Origin: an uncultured Pelagibacteraceae bacterium
GTDB lineage: Bacteria; Pseudomonadota; Alphaproteobacteria; Pelagibacterales; Pelagibacteraceae
DNA: 64,000 nucleotides
Direction of reading: 5' to 3'
Assembly: GCA_902536765.1 (NCBI GenBank)
Contig: CACAYM010000001.1
Span: 62,001 to 126,000 of the forward strand
The position numbers and the translations under genes were made by a program. Every line of letters begins with the position of its first letter. Positions within the stretch are counted from its first letter, which is position 1. Shown here piece by piece: positions 21,593 through 54,400 of this stretch. The notes under the pieces are model-generated. The model saw only the letters and a program-made list of their open reading frames with translations, was not told the origin of the DNA and made no database searches.

Positions 21593-22585
21593 GTGATATT
21601 AAAACCTTATCAACTATCAAATTTAAAGAAACTAGATTCAAATTTCTTTCTTCTTTATGGTCAAAATGAGGGTCACAAAAATGATTGTATTAAAAATATT
21701 TTAGATTTATGCAAATCTAAAAATATATTTAGATATGATGAGGACGAAATATTTAATGATTACGACAGCTTTATAAACGGTCTCTCTAATAAATCGTTTT
21801 TTGAAGATAACAAAGTAATTATTATCTCAAGGGTATCTGAAAGAATTTATGCCTTGATACAAGATATAAGAGAGAGAATTATAAATGATATCGATATTAT
21901 AATTAATTCTAAACTTTTAGACAAAAGATCAAAACTAAGATCAAATTTTGAAAAAGAAAAAGATTTAATTTGCGTACCATTTTATAGTGAGGACAACTCT
22001 GCACTCGCTTACTTAGCAAATAGATTCTTTATTGATAATAAAATTCCAATTTCAAGAGAAATGATAAATTTATTAGTTGATAGATGTAGGGGTGATAGAA
22101 TTAATTTGAAAAACGAGTTGTCAAAAATTGAAGCTTTTGTGACAAATAAAAAAAAGATTACTATAAGTGAAATATTAAATTTAACTAATCTTGCAGAAAA
22201 CTACGGTTTCTCAGAACTTGCAGATGCATGTTTAAGCAAAAACAGAAAAAAAACTTTGTTAATTATAAATGAAAATTATTTTTCACCTGAAGATTGTATA
22301 GCAATCATCAGAATATTTTTAAGTAAAGCAAAAAGAATTTTTGCTTTAAAAAAAATGCAAGAAGGAGGCAAAAATATTGATCAATGCATATTAGCTTACA
22401 AACCTCAAATATTTTGGAAAGATAAGGAGATTGTAAAACAACAATTAAATAAATGGACTTTGGATAAAATAATAAAGTTTATAACTTTTATTAACGAAGC
22501 AGAACTTTTATTAAAAAAAAATAATTCAAATGCAATAATCTTATTAAATAATTTTATTTTGGAACAATTAGAAGTCAATAATTAG
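21593..22585 (+). CDS. holA: DNA polymerase III delta subunit
   Basis: HolA is the wrench of the clamp loader that opens the beta clamp. The 330-aa protein matches the family plan: FFLLYGQNEGHKNDCI near the start, FFEDNKVIIISRVSERI (about 70-86), then a C-terminal helical domain with SPEDCIAIIRIFLSKAKR. It starts with GTG (21593), 2 nt after the lptE stop. Its stop is convergent with parB, overlapping by 11 nt. Confidence 0.92.
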   Translation: MILKPYQLSNLKKLDSNFFLLYGQNEGHKNDCIKNILDLCKSKNIFRYDEDEIFNDYDSFINGLSNKSFFEDNKVIIISRVSERIYALIQDIRERIINDIDIIINSKLLDKRSKLRSNFEKEKDLICVPFYSEDNSALAYLANRFFIDNKIPISREMINLLVDRCRGDRINLKNELSKIEAFVTNKKKITISEILNLTNLAENYGFSELADACLSKNRKKTLLIINENYFSPEDCIAIIRIFLSKAKRIFALKKMQEGGKNIDQCILAYKPQIFWKDKEIVKQQLNKWTLDKIIKFITFINEAELLLKKNNSNAIILLNNFILEQLEVNN

Positions 22586-23423
22586 CTTTTATTATATAAA
22601 TAAGCTTATTCAACTGATCTAGATCTTTGTAATTAAAAGATATTAATCCAGTATTATTTCTTTTGTTTTTAATTGAAACTCTTATTCCTAACTTATTAAT
22701 TAATGTGTTTTCAAGTTCTTTTAAATTTGAGTCTTGAGAAATTAGTTTTATTTTTTTTGGTTTTTTAAATAAATTTACTAAATTCTCAGCTTGTCTTACT
22801 GATAATTTTTTTTCAAAGATTTTTTTAGCTAAAAGATTTGCATTTTCCATACCAACTAATATTTTTGCATGGCCTTGCGTAATTTTACCACTCTCAATCA
22901 TATCAGCTACATCTTTTGGTAAAGATAATAATCTAAGGCAATTAGCTATGTGCGCTCTGCTTTTGCCTATAAATTTTCCAACTTTTTCTTGATCATATCC
23001 GAACTCATCCATTAACCTTTTGTAGCCCCTTGCCTCCTCTATAGGGTTAAGATCACTGCGTTGAACATTTTCTATAATTCCGAACTCCAACGCTTTCGTG
23101 TCGTCCGCTTCAATAATTACAGCTGGTATTTCATTTAAACCAGCGTTTTGAGATGCTAACCACCTTCTCTCACCTGCTATAATTTCATATTTGCCTTCAA
23201 TTTCTTTTGACTTCCGCACTATTATTGGCTGAACAACCCCTCTTTCCTTTATTGAATTACTTAGCTCTTCTAAACTAGCTTTATCAAATATTTTTCTAGG
23301 CTGAAATTTTCCTCTAACAATTTCACTAATAGAGATCTTATTTTTCATTGTAGAGTTTTTTGTATCACCAATTAACGATGAAATACCTCTACCTAAACCC
23401 TTTTTTGGTTTTAAAATATTCAG
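22575..23423 (-). CDS. parB: Chromosome partitioning protein ParB, probable CTG start
   Basis: ParB binds parS, spreads as a CTP-dependent clamp and stimulates ParA. From the first ATG (23348) the protein would be 257 aa and lack the conserved N-terminal ParA-interaction peptide. That peptide (KKGLGRGISSLIG) is present in frame upstream, at 23367-23405. The best start is CTG at 23423, overlapping the parA stop as CTGA with GGAG 8 nt before it, giving 282 aa. Core motifs are IAGERRWLASQNAGL (about 83-97), IENVQRSDLNPIEEARGY and a helix-turn-helix around KVGKFIGKSRAHIANCLRL. ATT at 23417 is an alternative start. Confidence 0.93.
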   Translation of the reverse strand: MNILKPKKGLGRGISSLIGDTKNSTMKNKISISEIVRGKFQPRKIFDKASLEELSNSIKERGVVQPIIVRKSKEIEGKYEIIAGERRWLASQNAGLNEIPAVIIEADDTKALEFGIIENVQRSDLNPIEEARGYKRLMDEFGYDQEKVGKFIGKSRAHIANCLRLLSLPKDVADMIESGKITQGHAKILVGMENANLLAKKIFEKKLSVRQAENLVNLFKKPKKIKLISQDSNLKELENTLINKLGIRVSIKNKRNNTGLISFNYKDLDQLNKLIYIIKANY

Positions 23424-24220
23424 GCTGCACTCTCCATGATTTTTTCTTGGTTCAAAAATTCCTCTGTCAAATTGAAATATGATTTACTACCATGACAAGA
23501 CTTATCATATATCAAAACAGGTATTCCATGAGATGGTGCTTCTGATAGTCTTACATTTCGTGGTATTACAGTATTATAAACTTTTTCTTTAAAATAATCC
23601 CTAGCTTCCTTTTCAACCTGGCTAGAGAGTTTATTTCTTTTATCATACATTGTAAGAACTATTCCTCTTATAGTTAGATCTGAATTAAGATTATCCTTAA
23701 CTCTATCAATAGTTTTAACAAGTTGAGTTAGTCCCTCTAATGCGAAAAATTCCGTTTGTAGAGGAACCAATAATGAGTTTGAAGCTACAAGTGCCATAAC
23801 CGTCAACAAGCTCAAAGATGGAGGGCAATCAATAAGTACATAGCTATAATTTGATTTATTTTCCTTAAAAAAAACAGACAATTTATCTCTTAGAATGAAT
23901 GCTCTACTATTATCACCTGCAGTTTCTACTTCTAAACCCGATAAATCAACGTTTGATGTAACAATATCCAAGTTATCGATTTTCGTAGTTTGAATTATTT
24001 CTGAAATAGACTTTGATCCGTTTAGAGCGTTATAAATATTTTTTTCTGATCCATCTATATTGGAATGGCCCAGTCCGGTTGTAGCATTTCCTTGAGGGTC
24101 AAGATCTATTACTAATATTTTTTTATTTAGGTTAGCTAATCCTGCTGCTAAATTAATTACAGTTGTTGTTTTTCCAACTCCCCCTTTTTGATTGATCACT
24201 GAAATTATTTTTGTTTTCAT
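23420..24220 (-). CDS. parA: Chromosome partitioning ATPase ParA (Soj)
   Basis: This 266-aa Walker-type ATPase has the deviant P-loop QKGGVGKTTT (about 11-20), LDPQGNATTGLG (about 40-51) and LIDCPPSLSLLT (about 127-138). ParA forms a DNA-bound gradient that moves ParB-parS complexes, and therefore origins, apart. It overlaps rsmG by 4 nt upstream and overlaps the proposed parB start downstream, so rsmG-parA-parB are tightly coupled. Confidence 0.98.
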   Translation of the reverse strand: MKTKIISVINQKGGVGKTTTVINLAAGLANLNKKILVIDLDPQGNATTGLGHSNIDGSEKNIYNALNGSKSISEIIQTTKIDNLDIVTSNVDLSGLEVETAGDNSRAFILRDKLSVFFKENKSNYSYVLIDCPPSLSLLTVMALVASNSLLVPLQTEFFALEGLTQLVKTIDRVKDNLNSDLTIRGIVLTMYDKRNKLSSQVEKEARDYFKEKVYNTVIPRNVRLSEAPSHGIPVLIYDKSCHGSKSYFNLTEEFLNQEKIMESAA

Positions 24221-24852
24221 TTCTTTTGTAAATTACAAATTTTAATTATTTTTGACTCGGAACTTGTTAAACTTTTTTTTTCTTTATAATCGAAAGTCCA
24301 ATTCGATAATGCTTTATCGAGAATATTTTTTTTATTTTTACCTAAAAAGATTATTACGCTTTTGAATTTTTTAAAATTTCTATCTGCTAGATCTAATACA
24401 ATTGGCAATGGCTTGAAGGCTCTAGCAATTATTAAGTCTGTTTCTATATTTTTTTCTTTAAATATATCTTTTTGAAAAACTTCAGCGTTTAAATTCAATT
24501 TTTCTTTAACTGCAGATAGAAATTCACATTTTCTGAAGCTCTTCTCATAAAGATGAAATTTCATATCTGGTTTTTTGATCTTCATAATTATTGCGAGAAC
24601 TATGCCAGGAAGACCAGATCCCGATCCTACGTCTGTACATACATCATAGTTTTCATCAATAAAATCAACTGTTTGTGCACAATCTACTATGTGTCTTTTT
24701 CTTATTTCCTTCTCAGTTGATTTGCTGATTAAGTTAATTTTACTATTTTCTTCTTTCAATAAATTACAATAAGCCTCAAACTGTGGAAATGTTTCACGTG
24801 AAACATTTAGGGGCTCCAAATTTTTATATTCTAAAATGTTCGAATCAATCAA
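24217..24852 (-). CDS. rsmG: 16S rRNA (guanine527-N7)-methyltransferase
   Basis: RsmG (GidB) methylates N7 of G527 in 16S rRNA using SAM. The 211-aa protein shows NVSRETFPQFEAYCNLLKEEN at the start in two short matches, the SAM loop DVGSGSGLPGIVLAI (about 92-106), HLYEKSFRKCEFL and LIIARAFKPLP. Codons 18-23 (Asn-Val-Ser-Arg-Glu-Thr) coincide with a perfect parS palindrome, so this coding segment serves two functions. It overlaps mnmG upstream by 4 nt. Confidence 0.97.
   Translation of the reverse strand: MIDSNILEYKNLEPLNVSRETFPQFEAYCNLLKEENSKINLISKSTEKEIRKRHIVDCAQTVDFIDENYDVCTDVGSGSGLPGIVLAIIMKIKKPDMKFHLYEKSFRKCEFLSAVKEKLNLNAEVFQKDIFKEKNIETDLIIARAFKPLPIVLDLADRNFKKFKSVIIFLGKNKKNILDKALSNWTFDYKEKKSLTSSESKIIKICNLQKK
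24790..24805. other. parS centromere site
   Basis: The 16-bp palindrome TGTTTCACGTGAAACA is the canonical chromosomal parS sequence bound by ParB, matching at every position. It lies inside the 5' end of rsmG, within the operon that encodes ParA and ParB and about 9 kb from the candidate origin. I saw no second perfect copy in this window. Confidence 0.95.
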
Positions 24853-28121: not shown

Positions 28122-28964
28122 ATGATTATTTGGTTAGCATCATATCCTAAAAGCGGAAATACATGGGTGAGGATGTTTCTGAAAAGCTATTTTCAGAAAA
28201 ATGAAGATGAATTTACATTAGACAGTTCAAAGCTAGATAGTTTTAATACGAAACATTTTCCAAATCAGGATTTATTAGAACATTTTAATGTAAATTATTT
28301 TGAATTTGAAGAAATTGCCAAAAATTGGGAAAATATGCAAGATTACATAAATCTTAATAACAAGACAAATTATATTAAAACACATAATTCAATGTGCACC
28401 GTAGGACCTTACAAATTTACGACTCCTAAGAATACTAAAGGAGTAATATATTTAGTAAGAGACCCAAGAGATATATTGGTTTCTTACGCAAACCACTTAG
28501 GTTTAAATCATGAACAAACCTTTAATATTTTGTCTTCACCTATAACCTTTGAAAATATTTCTACGGTATTTTCAAAAGGAAAAAATTATAAAAATTCTAT
28601 TATGGGGACTTGGTCTGATCACTTTAATTCATGGAAAACTTTTAAATTTTGTAATACGTTAAGAATCAAGTATGAAGACATGATTTCAGACTCTTCTGGC
28701 ACATTTTTAAAAATTTTGAAATATTTGAACGAAATTGATGATATAGAAATAAATACTCAAAAATTAAATAAAGCTGTTGAACAGACTCAGTTTAAAAAGT
28801 TACAAGATATAGAAAAGAAATACGGATTTTCTGAAAAAGGCAAGGGAAAGTTGTTTTTTAGAGAAGGTAAAATTGGGGTTTGGAAAAATAATGTCGATAG
28901 CGAAATTATAAAAAAAATTGAAACTATTTTTAAAAATGAAATGAGTGAATTAGGCTACCTATAA
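28122..28964 (+). CDS. PAPS-dependent sulfotransferase-like protein (copy 1)
   Basis: The 280-aa protein opens with the 5'-phosphosulfate loop ASYPKSGNTWVR (about 5-16). It carries the 3'-phosphate motif YLVRDPRDILVSYANHLG (about 109-126), followed by a late GKGKLFFREGKIGVWKNN segment. KTHNSM supplies the catalytic-His region. Sulfotransferases of this class move sulfate from PAPS to an alcohol or amine; the acceptor is unknown. A clear paralogue lies at 48937-49788. With the convergent glycosyltransferase it interrupts the mnmE-rho neighbourhood, suggesting accessory surface-modification genes. Confidence 0.88.
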   Translation: MIIWLASYPKSGNTWVRMFLKSYFQKNEDEFTLDSSKLDSFNTKHFPNQDLLEHFNVNYFEFEEIAKNWENMQDYINLNNKTNYIKTHNSMCTVGPYKFTTPKNTKGVIYLVRDPRDILVSYANHLGLNHEQTFNILSSPITFENISTVFSKGKNYKNSIMGTWSDHFNSWKTFKFCNTLRIKYEDMISDSSGTFLKILKYLNEIDDIEINTQKLNKAVEQTQFKKLQDIEKKYGFSEKGKGKLFFREGKIGVWKNNVDSEIIKKIETIFKNEMSELGYL

Positions 28965-28970
28965 ATACTA

Positions 28971-29765
28971 CTAATTAGATTTCCACCAAAAACCAAAATT
29001 TTTTAGAAAATCTTTTTTGTTATTTTCATCCGAAAAGAAATTTACAGCTTTTTCATTGATTTTTTTACTTATTTTTACGTTTTTTGGTAACTCTAAATTA
29101 CTGTAAGTATAGTGAACATCATATAAAGTTCTAAAAGCCAAAGTGTGCCTCTCAGAGAACCTTATAGGACATTGATGCCTTAATAAATTGTTGAAAAAAA
29201 TTCTATCACACCACTGAGAAGTTTCTTGGGGAATTAAGTGCCAAATATTCATAACTTTAAAAAAAGCTTGTGGGATTAAATAGCATGAAGTATCTACAAA
29301 TTTTTTTTGAAGACAATCAGTGTCCTCAATATAGGACATTTTTGTTTCATCCATTGTATAAAAGGATCTATAGCTGCAACCTATATAGTCTTTATTTTCA
29401 ATCAATTCAAACAAAGATCTTATGTGGCCTTCCAGGAACCAATTATCACTATCTAAATACATTATAAAATCATAATTCGATGATATTGCAAAGTCTGTTC
29501 CAATACTTCTTGGAGTGTTGCCATTATTATTATAGTTTTTTTTAAGTTCAATTTTTTTGCATTTTAATCTGTTAAGATTTTTATTTTTGTCGAAACCGTC
29601 AACTATAATTATATGGTCACAAATGAAATTAGGCACAAATTTATACTGTTTAGAAAGTTCATTCTCCTGAGAAATAACGGATTCGTTTGCTCTTTTAATA
29701 ATGACAAAATCCTCATTATTGTATGGAGTAATAACTGCTATTTTTTTAATTTTTTCTGATCCCAA
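28971..29765 (-). CDS. Family 2 (GT-A) glycosyltransferase
   Basis: The 264-aa protein begins IAVITPYNNEDFVIIKRANESVISQ in two short matches, as GT2 enzymes do. It has IIIVDGFD, an NNNGNTPRSIGTDFAISSN segment (about 83-101) and the metal-binding motif FIMYLDSDNWF (about 104-114). Later, SQWCDRIFFNNLL probably contributes to the acceptor site. Donor and acceptor sugars cannot be told. It begins 1 nt after the rho stop, so it is likely read through from rho. It ends 6 nt from the convergent sulfotransferase. Confidence 0.85.
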   Translation of the reverse strand: MGSEKIKKIAVITPYNNEDFVIIKRANESVISQENELSKQYKFVPNFICDHIIIVDGFDKNKNLNRLKCKKIELKKNYNNNGNTPRSIGTDFAISSNYDFIMYLDSDNWFLEGHIRSLFELIENKDYIGCSYRSFYTMDETKMSYIEDTDCLQKKFVDTSCYLIPQAFFKVMNIWHLIPQETSQWCDRIFFNNLLRHQCPIRFSERHTLAFRTLYDVHYTYSNLELPKNVKISKKINEKAVNFFSDENNKKDFLKNFGFWWKSN

Positions 29766-31535: not shown

Positions 31536-32530
31536 TTTTTTAAGATGTATCTTTCAACTAATGTACTAATAAGCTTTATATGATCATCGTTGTCATTTAA
31601 GCAAGGCACAACATCAAAATTTGTTCCGCCATGGCTTAAAAAGCTTTCTTTGCCTTGAATAGCTATTTCCTCAAGCGTCTCCACACAGTCAGATGAAAAG
31701 CCAGGACAAATGATTAAGATATTTTTTTTTCCATTGCTAGGAAGCTTTTCAAGAGTTTTGTCTGTATAAGGTTGCAACCATTCTTGTGGACCAAATCTGG
31801 ATTGAAATGTGGTTTCAATTGGTATTTTAGAAAATTTCTCTTTAATAAGTCTTGTGGTTTTTTGGCAGTAGCAATGATATGGATCACCTTTTTCGAAATA
31901 TTTCTTTGGGATACCATGATATGAAGCTATTATAAGATCTGGCTTCCAATTTATATCAGATATTTTTTTTTCAATGCTTTTAACCAAAGCATCAATGTAT
32001 AAAGGTTCAGATTCATAATGTGGGATAATTTGTAGACTTGGTTGCCATCTTGCTTTCATCAAATATCTGTAAACTTCATCACAAACTGTTGCTGTAGTTG
32101 CTGCTGCGTATTGAGGATATAAAGGTAAAACTATTAGGTTTTCACAGCCTTTTTTTTGCATTTCTTTCATTACACTTCTAATGCTTGGATTCCCATACCG
32201 CATGGCGTAATCGATTATGATGTTTGTGGAAGATATTTTATTTTTTAACTTTAAAGTTTGATTTTGGGTGTAATATCTTAAAGGAGACATATTTTCTTTT
32301 TTCATCCATATTTCTTTATAAGCTTTGGCTGTTTTTGATGGTCTTAAAGTTAAAATGAAAAAATTAAGTATTAATTGCCAGATTAACGGGTTAACTTCTA
32401 TTACTCTTCTATCTGATAAGAACTCTTTTAAATATTTCCGGATATCAAACCAACTAGTAGAATCTGGTGTCCCAAGGTTAACTAATAGTATTCCGGTTTT
32501 ACCAAAATTAATTTTAGGATGCTCTTTCAT
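31532..32530 (-). CDS. hemH: Ferrochelatase
   Basis: HemH inserts Fe2+ into protoporphyrin IX. The 332-aa protein has GILLVNLGTPDSTSWFDIRKYLKEF at the start in two short matches, then LPLYPQYAAATTATVCDEV (about 135-153). IASYHGIPKKYFEKGDPYHCYC holds the catalytic His (about 200). WLQPYTDKTLE and ICPGFSSDCVETLEEI (about 275-290) complete the pattern. The 5' end overlaps the hemE 3' end by 17 nt, and the 3' end overlaps hemJ. Confidence 0.97.
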   Translation of the reverse strand: MKEHPKINFGKTGILLVNLGTPDSTSWFDIRKYLKEFLSDRRVIEVNPLIWQLILNFFILTLRPSKTAKAYKEIWMKKENMSPLRYYTQNQTLKLKNKISSTNIIIDYAMRYGNPSIRSVMKEMQKKGCENLIVLPLYPQYAAATTATVCDEVYRYLMKARWQPSLQIIPHYESEPLYIDALVKSIEKKISDINWKPDLIIASYHGIPKKYFEKGDPYHCYCQKTTRLIKEKFSKIPIETTFQSRFGPQEWLQPYTDKTLEKLPSNGKKNILIICPGFSSDCVETLEEIAIQGKESFLSHGGTNFDVVPCLNDNDDHIKLISTLVERYILKK

Positions 32531-33527
32531 TAAATTTTCTCACAAGTTTTACTAAGTATTCTATCATAATTGGATCCGTTTGAGGAAGAACACCATGACC
32601 CAAATTAAAAATATATGGATGATTTTCAAACGTTCGTAGGTAGTAATTAGTAATTTTCTCTAATCTTTTTTTATTAGTCAATAAAACTCTGGGATCCATC
32701 CCTCCCTGTATTGGTATGTTAATGTGTTTAATAATATTCTTAGGATTAGTTTGATAATCAATATTAATTACACTTGGTTTTATTATGTCAGTATAATCCT
32801 TGTAATTATTAATATTCCTAGGAAAACATACAGATGGAGTCTTAAGATTTTTAATCTCTTTCACTAGTTTTCTTGTAGGATTGTAAATATAATCTTCAAG
32901 ATTTTTTTCATTCACTAAACCTGCCCAACTATCAAATATTTGTATAATATCTGCACCATATTTGATTTGATTTTGGATATGTAATTTTAAGTATTTATTT
33001 ATATATTTAAGTAAATCAATAATTAATGGTTTATCACTTAGTGCCTTTTTTAGTTTTCTTTTTGGGGAAGTCCTATTTAGAATGTATAATAATATTGTCC
33101 AAGGTCCGCCAATAAAGCCTATTAGGTCTTTTTTATCCATTAATTTACTTTTTTTAACTAAACTTATTGATTTATAAACTGGATAAAGTTTTCTTTTAAA
33201 GTCATTCGCCTCATAATTCATTATGTTCTCAAAATTTAAAGATCCTAGTTGTGGGCCAAAATTTTTTCTAAACTTAACCGATTGACCTAAACCATAAGGA
33301 ACCATTAAAATATCTGAAAATATTATTGCTGCGTCGAAATCATATCTCTTAATTGGTTGAAGTGTAATTTCTTTGGCTTTCTTTTGATTTAAACAAAGTT
33401 TGATAAAGTCTGGGTTTTCTTTCCTTATCTCTCTAAACTCAGGTAAATATCTTCCAGCTTGTCTCATTAACCATATCGGTTTAATTGAAACGTCTTTCTT
33501 TATGATAACTTTCTTAATTGGAGTCAT
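32514..33527 (-). CDS. hemE: Uroporphyrinogen decarboxylase
   Basis: HemE decarboxylates uroporphyrinogen III to coproporphyrinogen III. The 337-aa protein carries KPIWLMRQAGRYLPEFREIR (about 16-35), containing the RQAGR signature, and IIFSDILMVPYGLG (about 68-81). GFIGGPWTILLYI (about 136-148) and FNLGHGVLPQTDP (about 312-324) are also family motifs. In Caulobacter and Rickettsia hemE borders the replication origin. Here it faces ppsR across 284 AT-rich bases with DnaA-box-like motifs. Confidence 0.98.
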   Translation of the reverse strand: MTPIKKVIIKKDVSIKPIWLMRQAGRYLPEFREIRKENPDFIKLCLNQKKAKEITLQPIKRYDFDAAIIFSDILMVPYGLGQSVKFRKNFGPQLGSLNFENIMNYEANDFKRKLYPVYKSISLVKKSKLMDKKDLIGFIGGPWTILLYILNRTSPKRKLKKALSDKPLIIDLLKYINKYLKLHIQNQIKYGADIIQIFDSWAGLVNEKNLEDYIYNPTRKLVKEIKNLKTPSVCFPRNINNYKDYTDIIKPSVINIDYQTNPKNIIKHINIPIQGGMDPRVLLTNKKRLEKITNYYLRTFENHPYIFNLGHGVLPQTDPIMIEYLVKLVRKFNERAS

Positions 33528-33811
33528 ATAAATAATATATATAGATCTAATTTAATATTATTAGGGTCTGTTAATATTGGTAATAAGTTTTTATCAACAT
33601 TTTTTAAATATTTTTTCAACAAGTTAATTTATATATTTCTGCCTTTTTAAAACTAAAAAATTATTATTATTTATTTAATTGTATATTGTTAATATTAATT
33701 ATACATGTGGCTAAAAATGTTGATTAAATGGGTTTTTTTAACTCTATAGACTTAAATATTCAATTTCTTGCAAAATAAGTTTATTATCAACTCTTATTAA
33801 ACAAATTATAC
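33528..33811. other. Candidate chromosomal replication origin (oriC)
   Basis: This gap between hemE and ppsR corresponds to the origin position of Caulobacter and Rickettsia. It is extremely AT-rich, with an A/T-only core around 33654-33680. DnaA-box-like 9-mers are TTATCAACA (33591-33599, +), TTTTCAACA (33613-33621, +), TAATCAACA (33718-33726, -) and TTATCAACT (33784-33792, +). TTAATATT occurs three times (33552, 33571, 33689). Genes on both sides mostly read outward, and parS with parAB lies 9-11 kb away. Chance matches are possible in such AT-rich DNA, so gene context carries most weight. Confidence 0.72.
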
Positions 33812-34636
33812 ATGAGTAATTTTTATCAAATATATTTAATCTCAGATTCAACTGGTGAGACCCTCGATAGAATTTTTTTAGCTTTAAAGGCTCAATTTAA
33901 AAATTTCAATTATAAGACAAATCACTTTTCTTTTACTAGAACTGAAAACCAAGTCATTAAAATTTTAGAGGAATGCAAAAAACAAAGAAATATTATTATT
34001 CTTTATACAATAGTTGATAAGGAATTAAGTTTTTTTTTAAATAATGAGACTAAAAAGATAAATATTCCTTGTTTTAGTGTTTTGGGTGATTTAATTAATA
34101 GCTTTTCGAAACTTTTAAATCAAAACTCTTTAAATGTTCCTAGTAGACAACACATATTGAATGATGAATATTACAAAAAGATTGATGCAATCCAATTTAC
34201 CATGAATCATGATGATGGAAATGCCATTAGTGATGTTGAAAAATCTGACATAATATTAATTGGAGTAAGCAGAACAAGCAAAACCCCAACCTCTATTTAC
34301 TTGGCTAATAAAGGGTATAAAGTATCGAATATTCCTATAGTAAACAAAAACTCTATACCCGAAAGTATTAAAAAAAATAAGCATAAAAAATGTATTATAG
34401 GTTTAATAGCGGAGCCAGGAAGATTAGCCGAGATTAGAAAAAATAGAATGACAAGTTTGAAAGAAACGGGCAATCAAAAGTATACAAATCTACAAAAAAT
34501 TCAGGACGAAGTCGAAAATTCTAAAAGTACATTTTTAAAATTTAAATGGCCAACAATTGATGTAAGCAGAAAATCTGTTGAGGAAACAGCTGCATCAGTA
34601 ATAAAGATCTATGAAATAAGTAGAAAAAATGCTTAA
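33812..34636 (+). CDS. ppsR: Pyruvate, phosphate dikinase/PEP synthase regulatory protein (DUF299)
   Basis: DUF299 proteins are bifunctional kinase/pyrophosphorylases that switch PPDK or PEP synthase off and on by threonine phosphorylation. The 274-aa protein has IYLISDSTGETLDRI (about 6-20), AIQFTMNHDDGNA (about 126-138) and the P-loop-like IILIGVSRTSKTPTSIYLA (about 148-166). KKCIIGLIAEPGRLAEIR and IDVSRKSVEETAA follow. It corresponds to the first gene right of the origin in Caulobacter (the RP001-type gene). It overlaps maf by 8 nt. Confidence 0.95.
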   Translation: MSNFYQIYLISDSTGETLDRIFLALKAQFKNFNYKTNHFSFTRTENQVIKILEECKKQRNIIILYTIVDKELSFFLNNETKKINIPCFSVLGDLINSFSKLLNQNSLNVPSRQHILNDEYYKKIDAIQFTMNHDDGNAISDVEKSDIILIGVSRTSKTPTSIYLANKGYKVSNIPIVNKNSIPESIKKNKHKKCIIGLIAEPGRLAEIRKNRMTSLKETGNQKYTNLQKIQDEVENSKSTFLKFKWPTIDVSRKSVEETAASVIKIYEISRKNA

Positions 34637-54188: not shown

Positions 54189-54325
54189 AATAAAACAAAA
54201 TTTATTAAAAAGTATTTTAATTTATAATTAAATTATAAATATATTATAAATAATAGAAATAAATAATTCTATTTTGTCACTTGCTTAATTTTTAAAAAGC
54301 CACTAATTTTAATAATTATAAACAT

Positions 54326-54400
54326 GCGGGCATAGCTCAGTGGTAGAGCGTCTCGTTGCCAACGAGAAGGTCGTGGGTTCAAGTCCCATTGCCCGCTCCA
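54326..54400 (+). tRNA. tRNA-Gly (anticodon GCC)
   Basis: All four arms fold: acceptor GCGGGCA/TGCCCGC, D arm GCTC...GAGC, anticodon stem TCTCG/CGAGA with loop TTGCCAA (anticodon GCC), and T arm GTGGG/CCCAT with TTCAAGT, where one G-T pair occurs. The CCA end is encoded. A long AT-rich stretch (54189-54325) lies upstream. Eleven bases after the CCA the phhB ATG begins, so the two are probably on one transcript. Confidence 0.97.

Follow-up and report, generated by a model that had tools for sequence, protein, structure and literature searches.

Gene content and composition of the hemE-ppsR locus

The window analysed here is a 64-kb stretch of DNA from an uncultured Pelagibacteraceae bacterium whose genome comprises 1.14 Mb in 20 contigs and has its closest named matches among Pelagibacteraceae, the SAR11 lineage. 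It contains hemE (32514–33527, minus strand; PF01208), encoding uroporphyrinogen decarboxylase, and ppsR (33812–34636, plus strand; PF03618), encoding a member of the Kinase-PPPase family. The two genes diverge from a 284-bp intergenic region (33528–33811), the whole of which is the candidate oriC. The G+C content of this gap is 16.2%, compared with 29.7% for the entire window, and the least stable 250-bp duplex within the window starts at 33527. The outward-facing genes and extreme AT content that underlay the original prediction of an origin at this position are therefore both present. Of all 40-bp duplexes in the window, the one starting at 54213 is the least stable; it lies just upstream of a tRNA gene (54326–54397) that is the sole Rfam match in the window at the gathering threshold.

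To the left of the gap come hemH, hemJ and rho, then two more genes of which one is on the plus strand, and then mnmE, mnmG, gidB, parA and parB. Of these, hemH, hemJ, gidB, parA and parB were named from protein families, and rho, mnmE and mnmG by eye; parA (23420–24220, minus strand) belongs to the AAA_31 and CbiA families and owes its name to its pairing with parB (22575–23348, minus strand). Inside gidB is a perfect parS (24790–24805, plus strand) located 8.7 kb from the gap, which matches the consensus TGTTTCACGTGAAACA at 16 of 16 positions with no mismatches. The nearby parS-parAB cluster noted in the prediction is thus confirmed. Between mnmE and rho, at 28122–29765, are two genes that by eye resemble a sulfotransferase and a glycosyltransferase.

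We take PF03618 to be equivalent to COG1806/DUF299, so that hemE and ppsR form the boundary pair of the alphaproteobacterial hemE/COG1806 origin. A COG1806/DUF299 gene is found beside Cori of Caulobacter crescentus, and the window ppsR was taken as its counterpart (PMC1914354). The same report describes Cori and the Rickettsia prowazekii origin as AT-rich regions with hemE/COG1806 boundaries and a cluster of DnaA boxes. The SAR11 gap has the same two boundary genes, AT-richness and box cluster, but its boxes mostly carry A at position 6 (A6) and do not conform to TTATNCACA as reported there (PMC1914354).

A cluster of DnaA boxes in the intergenic region

Boxes were located using a relaxed definition shaped by the relatives' sequences, TTAT[ACT][AC]ACA, in which a single mismatch was allowed provided that it left the [AC]ACA core untouched. 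The gap contains six such sites compared with 0.87 in its own shuffles, none of which reached six in 1000 trials, and elsewhere in the window no 290-bp stretch contains more than three. A strict ranking of the window by box density also picks the hemE-ppsR gap. As the strict consensus TTATNCACA has no exact match in the window gap, the cluster is apparent only with the SAR11 form of the box. In the complete relative G011, the three strict boxes of the gap form the densest strict cluster among the sampled stretches; under the relaxed definition, two other places in that genome outscore the origin gap and many tie with it.

Four box-like 9-mers had been predicted, and all are present. We assign them to TTATCAACA (33591–33599, plus strand), TTTTCAACA (33613–33621, plus strand), TAATCAACA (33718–33726, minus strand) and TTATCAACT (33784–33792, plus strand). 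Absent from that prediction were three minus-strand sites, namely the box ATATTAACA (33569–33577), a degenerate tandem box TTATTACCA (33578–33586) that abuts it, and the box-like TTAGCCACA (33706–33714), as well as the DnaA-trios described below. The box ATATTAACA is the one nearest the predicted unwinding region; it differs by one mismatch from the SAR11 form TTATTAACA and by three from TTATCCACA.

Of the four predicted 9-mers, those at 33591, 33613 and 33718 are conserved in the 100-row alignment. The site at 33784 still resembles a box in 10 of the 11 nearest relatives compared, but this resemblance does not extend to the 100 rows. Similarly, TTAGCCACA retains its CACA end in 11/11 nearest relatives and is unconserved across the 100 rows. 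The TTTTCAACA site carries C at position 6 in every one of the 11 nearest relatives compared. Mean column conservation is 0.85 in the four boxes at 33569, 33591, 33613 and 33718, compared with 0.64 elsewhere. The two best-conserved boxes are those at 33569–33577 and 33718–33726. At the former, T4 is found in 100%, A7 in 99%, C8 in 100% and A9 in 98% of the 100 rows, position 6 is C in 57 and A in 43, and the commonest form is TTATTCACA (46/100 rows). At the latter, TTATTAACA is the commonest form (43/100 rows).

The gap and its boxes are conserved across SAR11

Matches to ppsR were found in 62 of the 121 relatives searched: 62 of 73 own-genus genomes, many of which are incomplete, and none of the 48 others, among which the labelled ones belong to the sister family f2. 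Both genes are present at 109 loci (100 distinct gaps), a set that excludes L043 and L055, with partial ppsR, and L050, without hemE, and that contains the window three times (as itself, L001 and L004); the duplicates were removed from the 100-row set and from a 52-locus set comprising own-genus loci and records titled Pelagibacteraceae or Pelagibacter that lack a genus label. All 109 loci are divergent, with gaps of 261–287 bp and 12.5–20.6% G+C. These gaps are shorter than the more than 400 bp reported for Caulobacter and Rickettsia (PMC1914354). The sequence of the gap evolves quickly between a few fixed blocks.

Across the 52 non-redundant loci, TTATTAACA occurs 68 times, in 43 loci, compared with 3.77 copies in dinucleotide shuffles, and together with TTATTCACA (26 versus 0.43 expected) it is the most enriched 9-mer of all. 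Enrichment was also observed for TTATCAACA (16 versus 0.53) and TTATAAACA (30 versus 3.53). Canonical TTATCCACA is represented by a single copy (0.10 expected). The prediction that the boxes read like TTATCAACA rather than TTATCCACA therefore extends to the SAR11 loci compared. Position 6 of TTATNNACA is A in 117 cases, C in 31, T in 6 and G in 1, where chance would yield A and T about equally; the SAR11 box thus carries A or C here, with A favoured approximately 4:1. Over all 109 gaps and the flanks of the retrieved loci, the pattern TTAT.[AC]ACA was found 328 times in 30,204 intergenic bases and 210 times in 1,024,197 flanking bases, which is approximately 50 times denser, the flanks being less AT-rich than the gaps.

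Two other words recur in these gaps. ACATGT is present 62 times versus 12.4 expected, in 28 of 52 loci, perhaps as a result of abutting head-to-head boxes. ATTGAAGCT, which is not a DnaA box, recurs in 9/52 gaps (0.04 expected).

A predicted unwinding module adjacent to hemE

The basal unwinding system (BUS) rule describes a DnaA box followed by a spacer of at most 16 bp and at least three 3'-NAN-5' trios (PMC8287927). On the minus strand of the window, reading toward hemE, the module is TTATTACCA-ATATTAACA-GACC-CTAATAATATTA: the tandem boxes are followed by the 4-bp spacer GACC (33565–33568) and four DnaA-trios, CTA ATA ATA TTA (33553–33564), with the plus strand as the 3'-NAN-5' strand. Taking the SAR11 box as the standard, the window conforms to the sequence rule, with four trios after 4 bp. 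Beyond the trios is an AT-rich, hemE-proximal stretch (33528–33552) that we predict to be part of the unwound region; in total, 33528–33568 contains six G/C in 41 bp.

Searching the 52 loci between 25 and 75 bp from hemE revealed a candidate unwinding box in 51, all but L062, with its 5' end 46–59 bases from the hemE start (46–52 in 47/51); in L006 and L072 the search appears to have picked a neighbouring box. Consecutive NTA trios number at least three in 32 of the 51 placed loci and two in the remaining 19. The mean run is 3.02 trios compared with 1.53 in mononucleotide-shuffled sequence, where the highest mean among 500 shuffles was 1.88.

The SAR11 module resembles the published system in its tandem boxes, its gap of 4 bp (13 bp when counted from the upstream box), its trios numbering at least three, and the presence of CTACTACT-type words in 6/10 non-redundant sister-family gaps. 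It differs in that both window boxes are three mismatches from TTATCCACA, and qualify only by the SAR11 consensus, and in that most of the window trios are ATA or TTA, not CTA (PMC8287927). By count on the alignment, the window DnaA has V201 where Bacillus subtilis DnaA has I190, described as a single-strand-binding residue (PMC8287927).

Sites for other origin regulators

The IHF consensus WATCAN5WTR has no match in the window gap (0.32 expected), which is a difference from the Caulobacter and Rickettsia origins as reported (PMC1914354), and a near-IHF form gave no clear enrichment over the 52 loci (7 versus 4.1 expected). Since we treat the IHF site as accessory, the placement in the hemE/COG1806 type was kept on the other features. 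The window gap likewise differs from those origins in lacking an exact CtrA site (PMC1914354): TTAA-N7-TTAA has no exact and one loose match (1.71 expected). CtrA control was rejected, as exact sites are missing in the window gap and the count over the 52 loci, 42 versus 29.7 ± 8.2, is unconvincing. One variant CtrA pattern reached 16 versus 5.9, in 12/52 loci, but overlaps the TTAAC of the box words. Related origins without CtrA sites are described (PMC1914354). We also rejected a role for CcrM, whose GANTC site is if anything depleted (2 versus 11.5 expected).

GC skew agrees coarsely with an origin sector near ppsR

GC skew inside the 64-kb window is uninformative because it largely tracks gene strand, and we therefore turned to complete relatives. 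Five complete genomes were sampled with 20 even stretches each, representing 29–32% of bases. In all five, skew is on average higher on the right side of ppsR than on the left, with a contrast of 0.078–0.143 (permutation P = 0.028 in G011, 0.0003 in G123, 0.0034 in G126, 0.0022 in G128 and 0.0002 in G121). The contrast at ppsR is the best of all rotations in 20-kb steps in G123, G126, G128 and G121; the best rotations in G011 lie 38–78 kb from ppsR. Interpolated minima are 11, 4, 94, 138 and 12 kb from ppsR in G011, G123, G126, G128 and G121, respectively. Their jackknife ranges miss ppsR in G126 (47–161 kb) and G128 (36–147 kb) and span more than 290 kb in G011 and G123. Of the GC-skew support anticipated for the predicted origin, the shift at ppsR was thus observed in 5/5 complete relatives, at coarse resolution, while minima as far as 138 kb away do not coincide with it. 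The sampled skew fixes the origin sector coarsely in the relatives, and not the gap itself.

A denser sample of G011, covering 57% of bases, produced a cumulative skew with a maximum at approximately 615 kb and a broad minimum at 1.18–1.31 Mb, the lowest sampled point being 1,231,116. Both ppsR (1,262,210) and dnaA (1,198,465) fall within this minimum, 31 and 33 kb from the low point, respectively, so this sample cannot separate the two. That dnaA lies within the G011 trough, that many other bacteria have their origin beside this gene, and that SAR11 whole-genome alignments have been started at DnaA (PMC12421898) would all be compatible with a true origin beside dnaA, which in this genome is approximately 66 kb from the gap, the gap itself acting as a secondary DnaA-binding locus. 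Several observations make this highly improbable. The 20-stretch minima of G011 and G121 are 11–12 kb from ppsR but 75 and 84 kb, respectively, from dnaA, which is unplaced in G123, G126 and G128. The sequence upstream of dnaA yielded one box in 1,110 bases, with only 6 of 21 loci providing more than 100 bp. Furthermore, the Caulobacter and Rickettsia origins are reported at hemE/COG1806 (PMC1914354).

The module persists when a flanking gene is lost

In the sister family f2 the layout is hemE, 271–281 bp, maf, and the box-spacer-trio module is kept (30 loci, L204–L233). None of these 30 origin loci gave a match to ppsR. At the equivalent place next to hemE some f2 loci carry TTCACAGGACCTACTACTACTACTATTCTATATATATAA (for example L233) and others ACATAAACAACTACAATTATATATATA. 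HemE of f2 is mostly 36–41% identical to that of the window. Two g6 genomes present the converse arrangement, in which a gene recognized by eye as rho is separated by approximately 353 bp from ppsR and hemE is gone from the locus; TTATAAACA, the 4-bp spacer and CTAATAA are nonetheless kept. For these g6 loci (L294 and L295, in G124 and G121), the only HemE match, of approximately 30% identity, is elsewhere, beside a hemB-like reading frame identified by eye, which suggests that the haem genes of g6 have been replaced.

hemE and ppsR point away from each other across a short, AT-rich gap, which must therefore contain their promoters too. The same features would fit a gap that is merely a divergent promoter, its box words arising by chance from AT-richness or serving DnaA as a transcription factor. 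The gap is not just a two-way promoter, however, as the module persists both where ppsR is lost (f2) and where hemE has given way to rho (g6). Box counts far above dinucleotide shuffles of the same gaps, and a difference in mean skew between the two sides of the locus, seen in five genomes with the sign expected of an origin, also argue against this explanation, which we regard as extremely improbable.

We conclude that 33528–33811 is very probably the chromosomal oriC of this SAR11 bacterium, of the hemE/COG1806 type, comprising a DnaA-box array and an unwinding module on the hemE side. Conserved length, box enrichment, the module, the skew of relatives, parS and survival upon loss of a flanking gene all bear out the original placement between hemE and ppsR. 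An origin of an ordinary kind is very well supported, and its derived box is common to the SAR11 relatives. From the sequence, its conservation and arrangement, and its coarse genomic position we infer that DnaA binds here, that the duplex unwinds and that replication does begin at this place. DnaA would bind the array of TTAT[T/A/C][A/C]ACA 9-mers. The abutting minus-strand boxes at 33569–33586, which point to hemE, may load a DnaA filament across the 4-bp spacer onto the trios. This filament would maintain the plus strand in single-stranded form and open the AT-rich sequence as far as hemE so that the helicase can load, and the sites at 33591, 33613, 33706, 33718 and 33784 would build the remainder of the DnaA complex.

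Box spelling and DnaA specificity

The departure from TTATCCACA had been taken to imply an adapted DnaA specificity. The base-contacting residues of DnaA are given as 399, 423, 432–435 and 438–439 in Escherichia coli numbering (PMC5043019), which we transferred to the window DnaA by an inferred ungapped offset of 4. The window protein keeps the equivalents of R399, P423, R432, D433, H434, T435 and H439; the exception is residue 438, an I that B. subtilis and the sister family share. No re-tooling is therefore apparent at the base-contacting residues of domain IV in the window DnaA. Differences were observed alongside them: own-genus DnaA has an RYLVRPRQ loop, IHS with S after H439 (21/21 sequences, compared with 0/23 others) and SN or AN before RDHTT, the N being common to g9/g10.

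We had expected A6 boxes to track the changes in helix 5 of DnaA, an idea contradicted by g7 and g8, whose DnaA has the ordinary xGRDHTTVIHA helix 5. In the six gaps of g7 and g8, TTAT.AACA occurs 14 times versus 0.59 expected, and there are two boxes with C at position 6 (C6). The nine gaps of g9 and g10 contain 16 A6 boxes (1.17 expected) and three C6. For 5 of these 15 gaps of other f1 genera the start of hemE or ppsR is approximate. The boxes of f2 are mixed, with 10 A6 and 10 C6 in 30 distinct, partly near-identical gaps, and a ratio of 8 to 6 in 10 non-redundant gaps. Since helix 5 is ordinary in g7/g8, g9/g10 share only the N, and A6 is dominant in all of these genera, the box shift either predates the DnaA changes or needs none.

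An alternative is that the gap is the origin and that SAR11 DnaA was re-tooled together with the box to prefer A at position 6. The own-genus RYLV loop and S after H439, which neighbour contact residues, the SN or AN before RDHTT with its N shared with g9/g10, and a position 6 that takes A and C but shuns T and G are consistent with this. Nevertheless, the listed base-contact residues are kept (PMC5043019), A6 dominates in g7 and g8 despite their ordinary helix 5, the unwinding box has C6 more often than A6 (57 versus 43), and TTATTAACA boxes are reported from Mycoplasma as well (PMC2751442). We consider re-tooling unlikely. Equally doubtful is a co-diverged recognition code, TTAT[T/A/C][A/C]ACA, in which A6 would be preferred although C6 is the commonest form of the unwinding box, and TTATCCACA would no longer be the favoured site. 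Such a code would be tuned by domain IV changes in the second shell, namely the RYLV loop, IHS and the N before RDHTT. With contact residues kept apart from I at 438, A6 boxes alongside an ordinary helix 5 in g7/g8, and C6 boxes coexisting with A6 boxes in the same origins, the adapted specificity originally proposed is not borne out. The SAR11 spelling, C5 to T/A and C6 to A, may most simply be read as AT-biased drift within the ordinary tolerance of domain IV, and on a plain reading of the box sequences A or C would be required at position 6.

Comparable departures are described in other lineages. Epsilonproteobacterial origins (core TTCAC) share with SAR11 a clade-wide departure from TTATCCACA and T at position 5, and A in place of C at position 6 is a tolerated, if rare, change there; they differ in that DnaA residues 435 and 438–439 vary, whereas SAR11 keeps 435 and 439 and has I438, and in that position 6 moves to A in SAR11 (PMC5043019). 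Putative DnaA boxes with the identical 9-mer TTATTAACA are reported for Mycoplasma hominis, M. mobile and M. arthritidis, an unrelated lineage in which the boxes are upstream of dnaA in one or two copies (PMC2751442).

Implications for locating SAR11 origins

SAR11 bacteria rank among the ocean's most abundant cells, and mycoplasma genomes are AT-rich like theirs. In the literature covered, which took in few subscription journals, we found no description of a SAR11 origin or its box. The DoriC database may hold a prediction for the SAR11 origin. Our results suggest that this origin would receive a poor score from origin finders that rely on TTATCCACA. Estimates of growth rate from metagenomes by peak-to-trough ratios depend on the position of the origin, and at least one growth estimator puts dnaA-bearing fragments at the origin (PMC7852909). 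Assuming dnaA as the origin would here be off by approximately 66 kb, a small, systematic error. The sister family, g6–g10 and the own genus constitute a natural series in which the box drifts to A+T and the DnaA contact residues are fixed.
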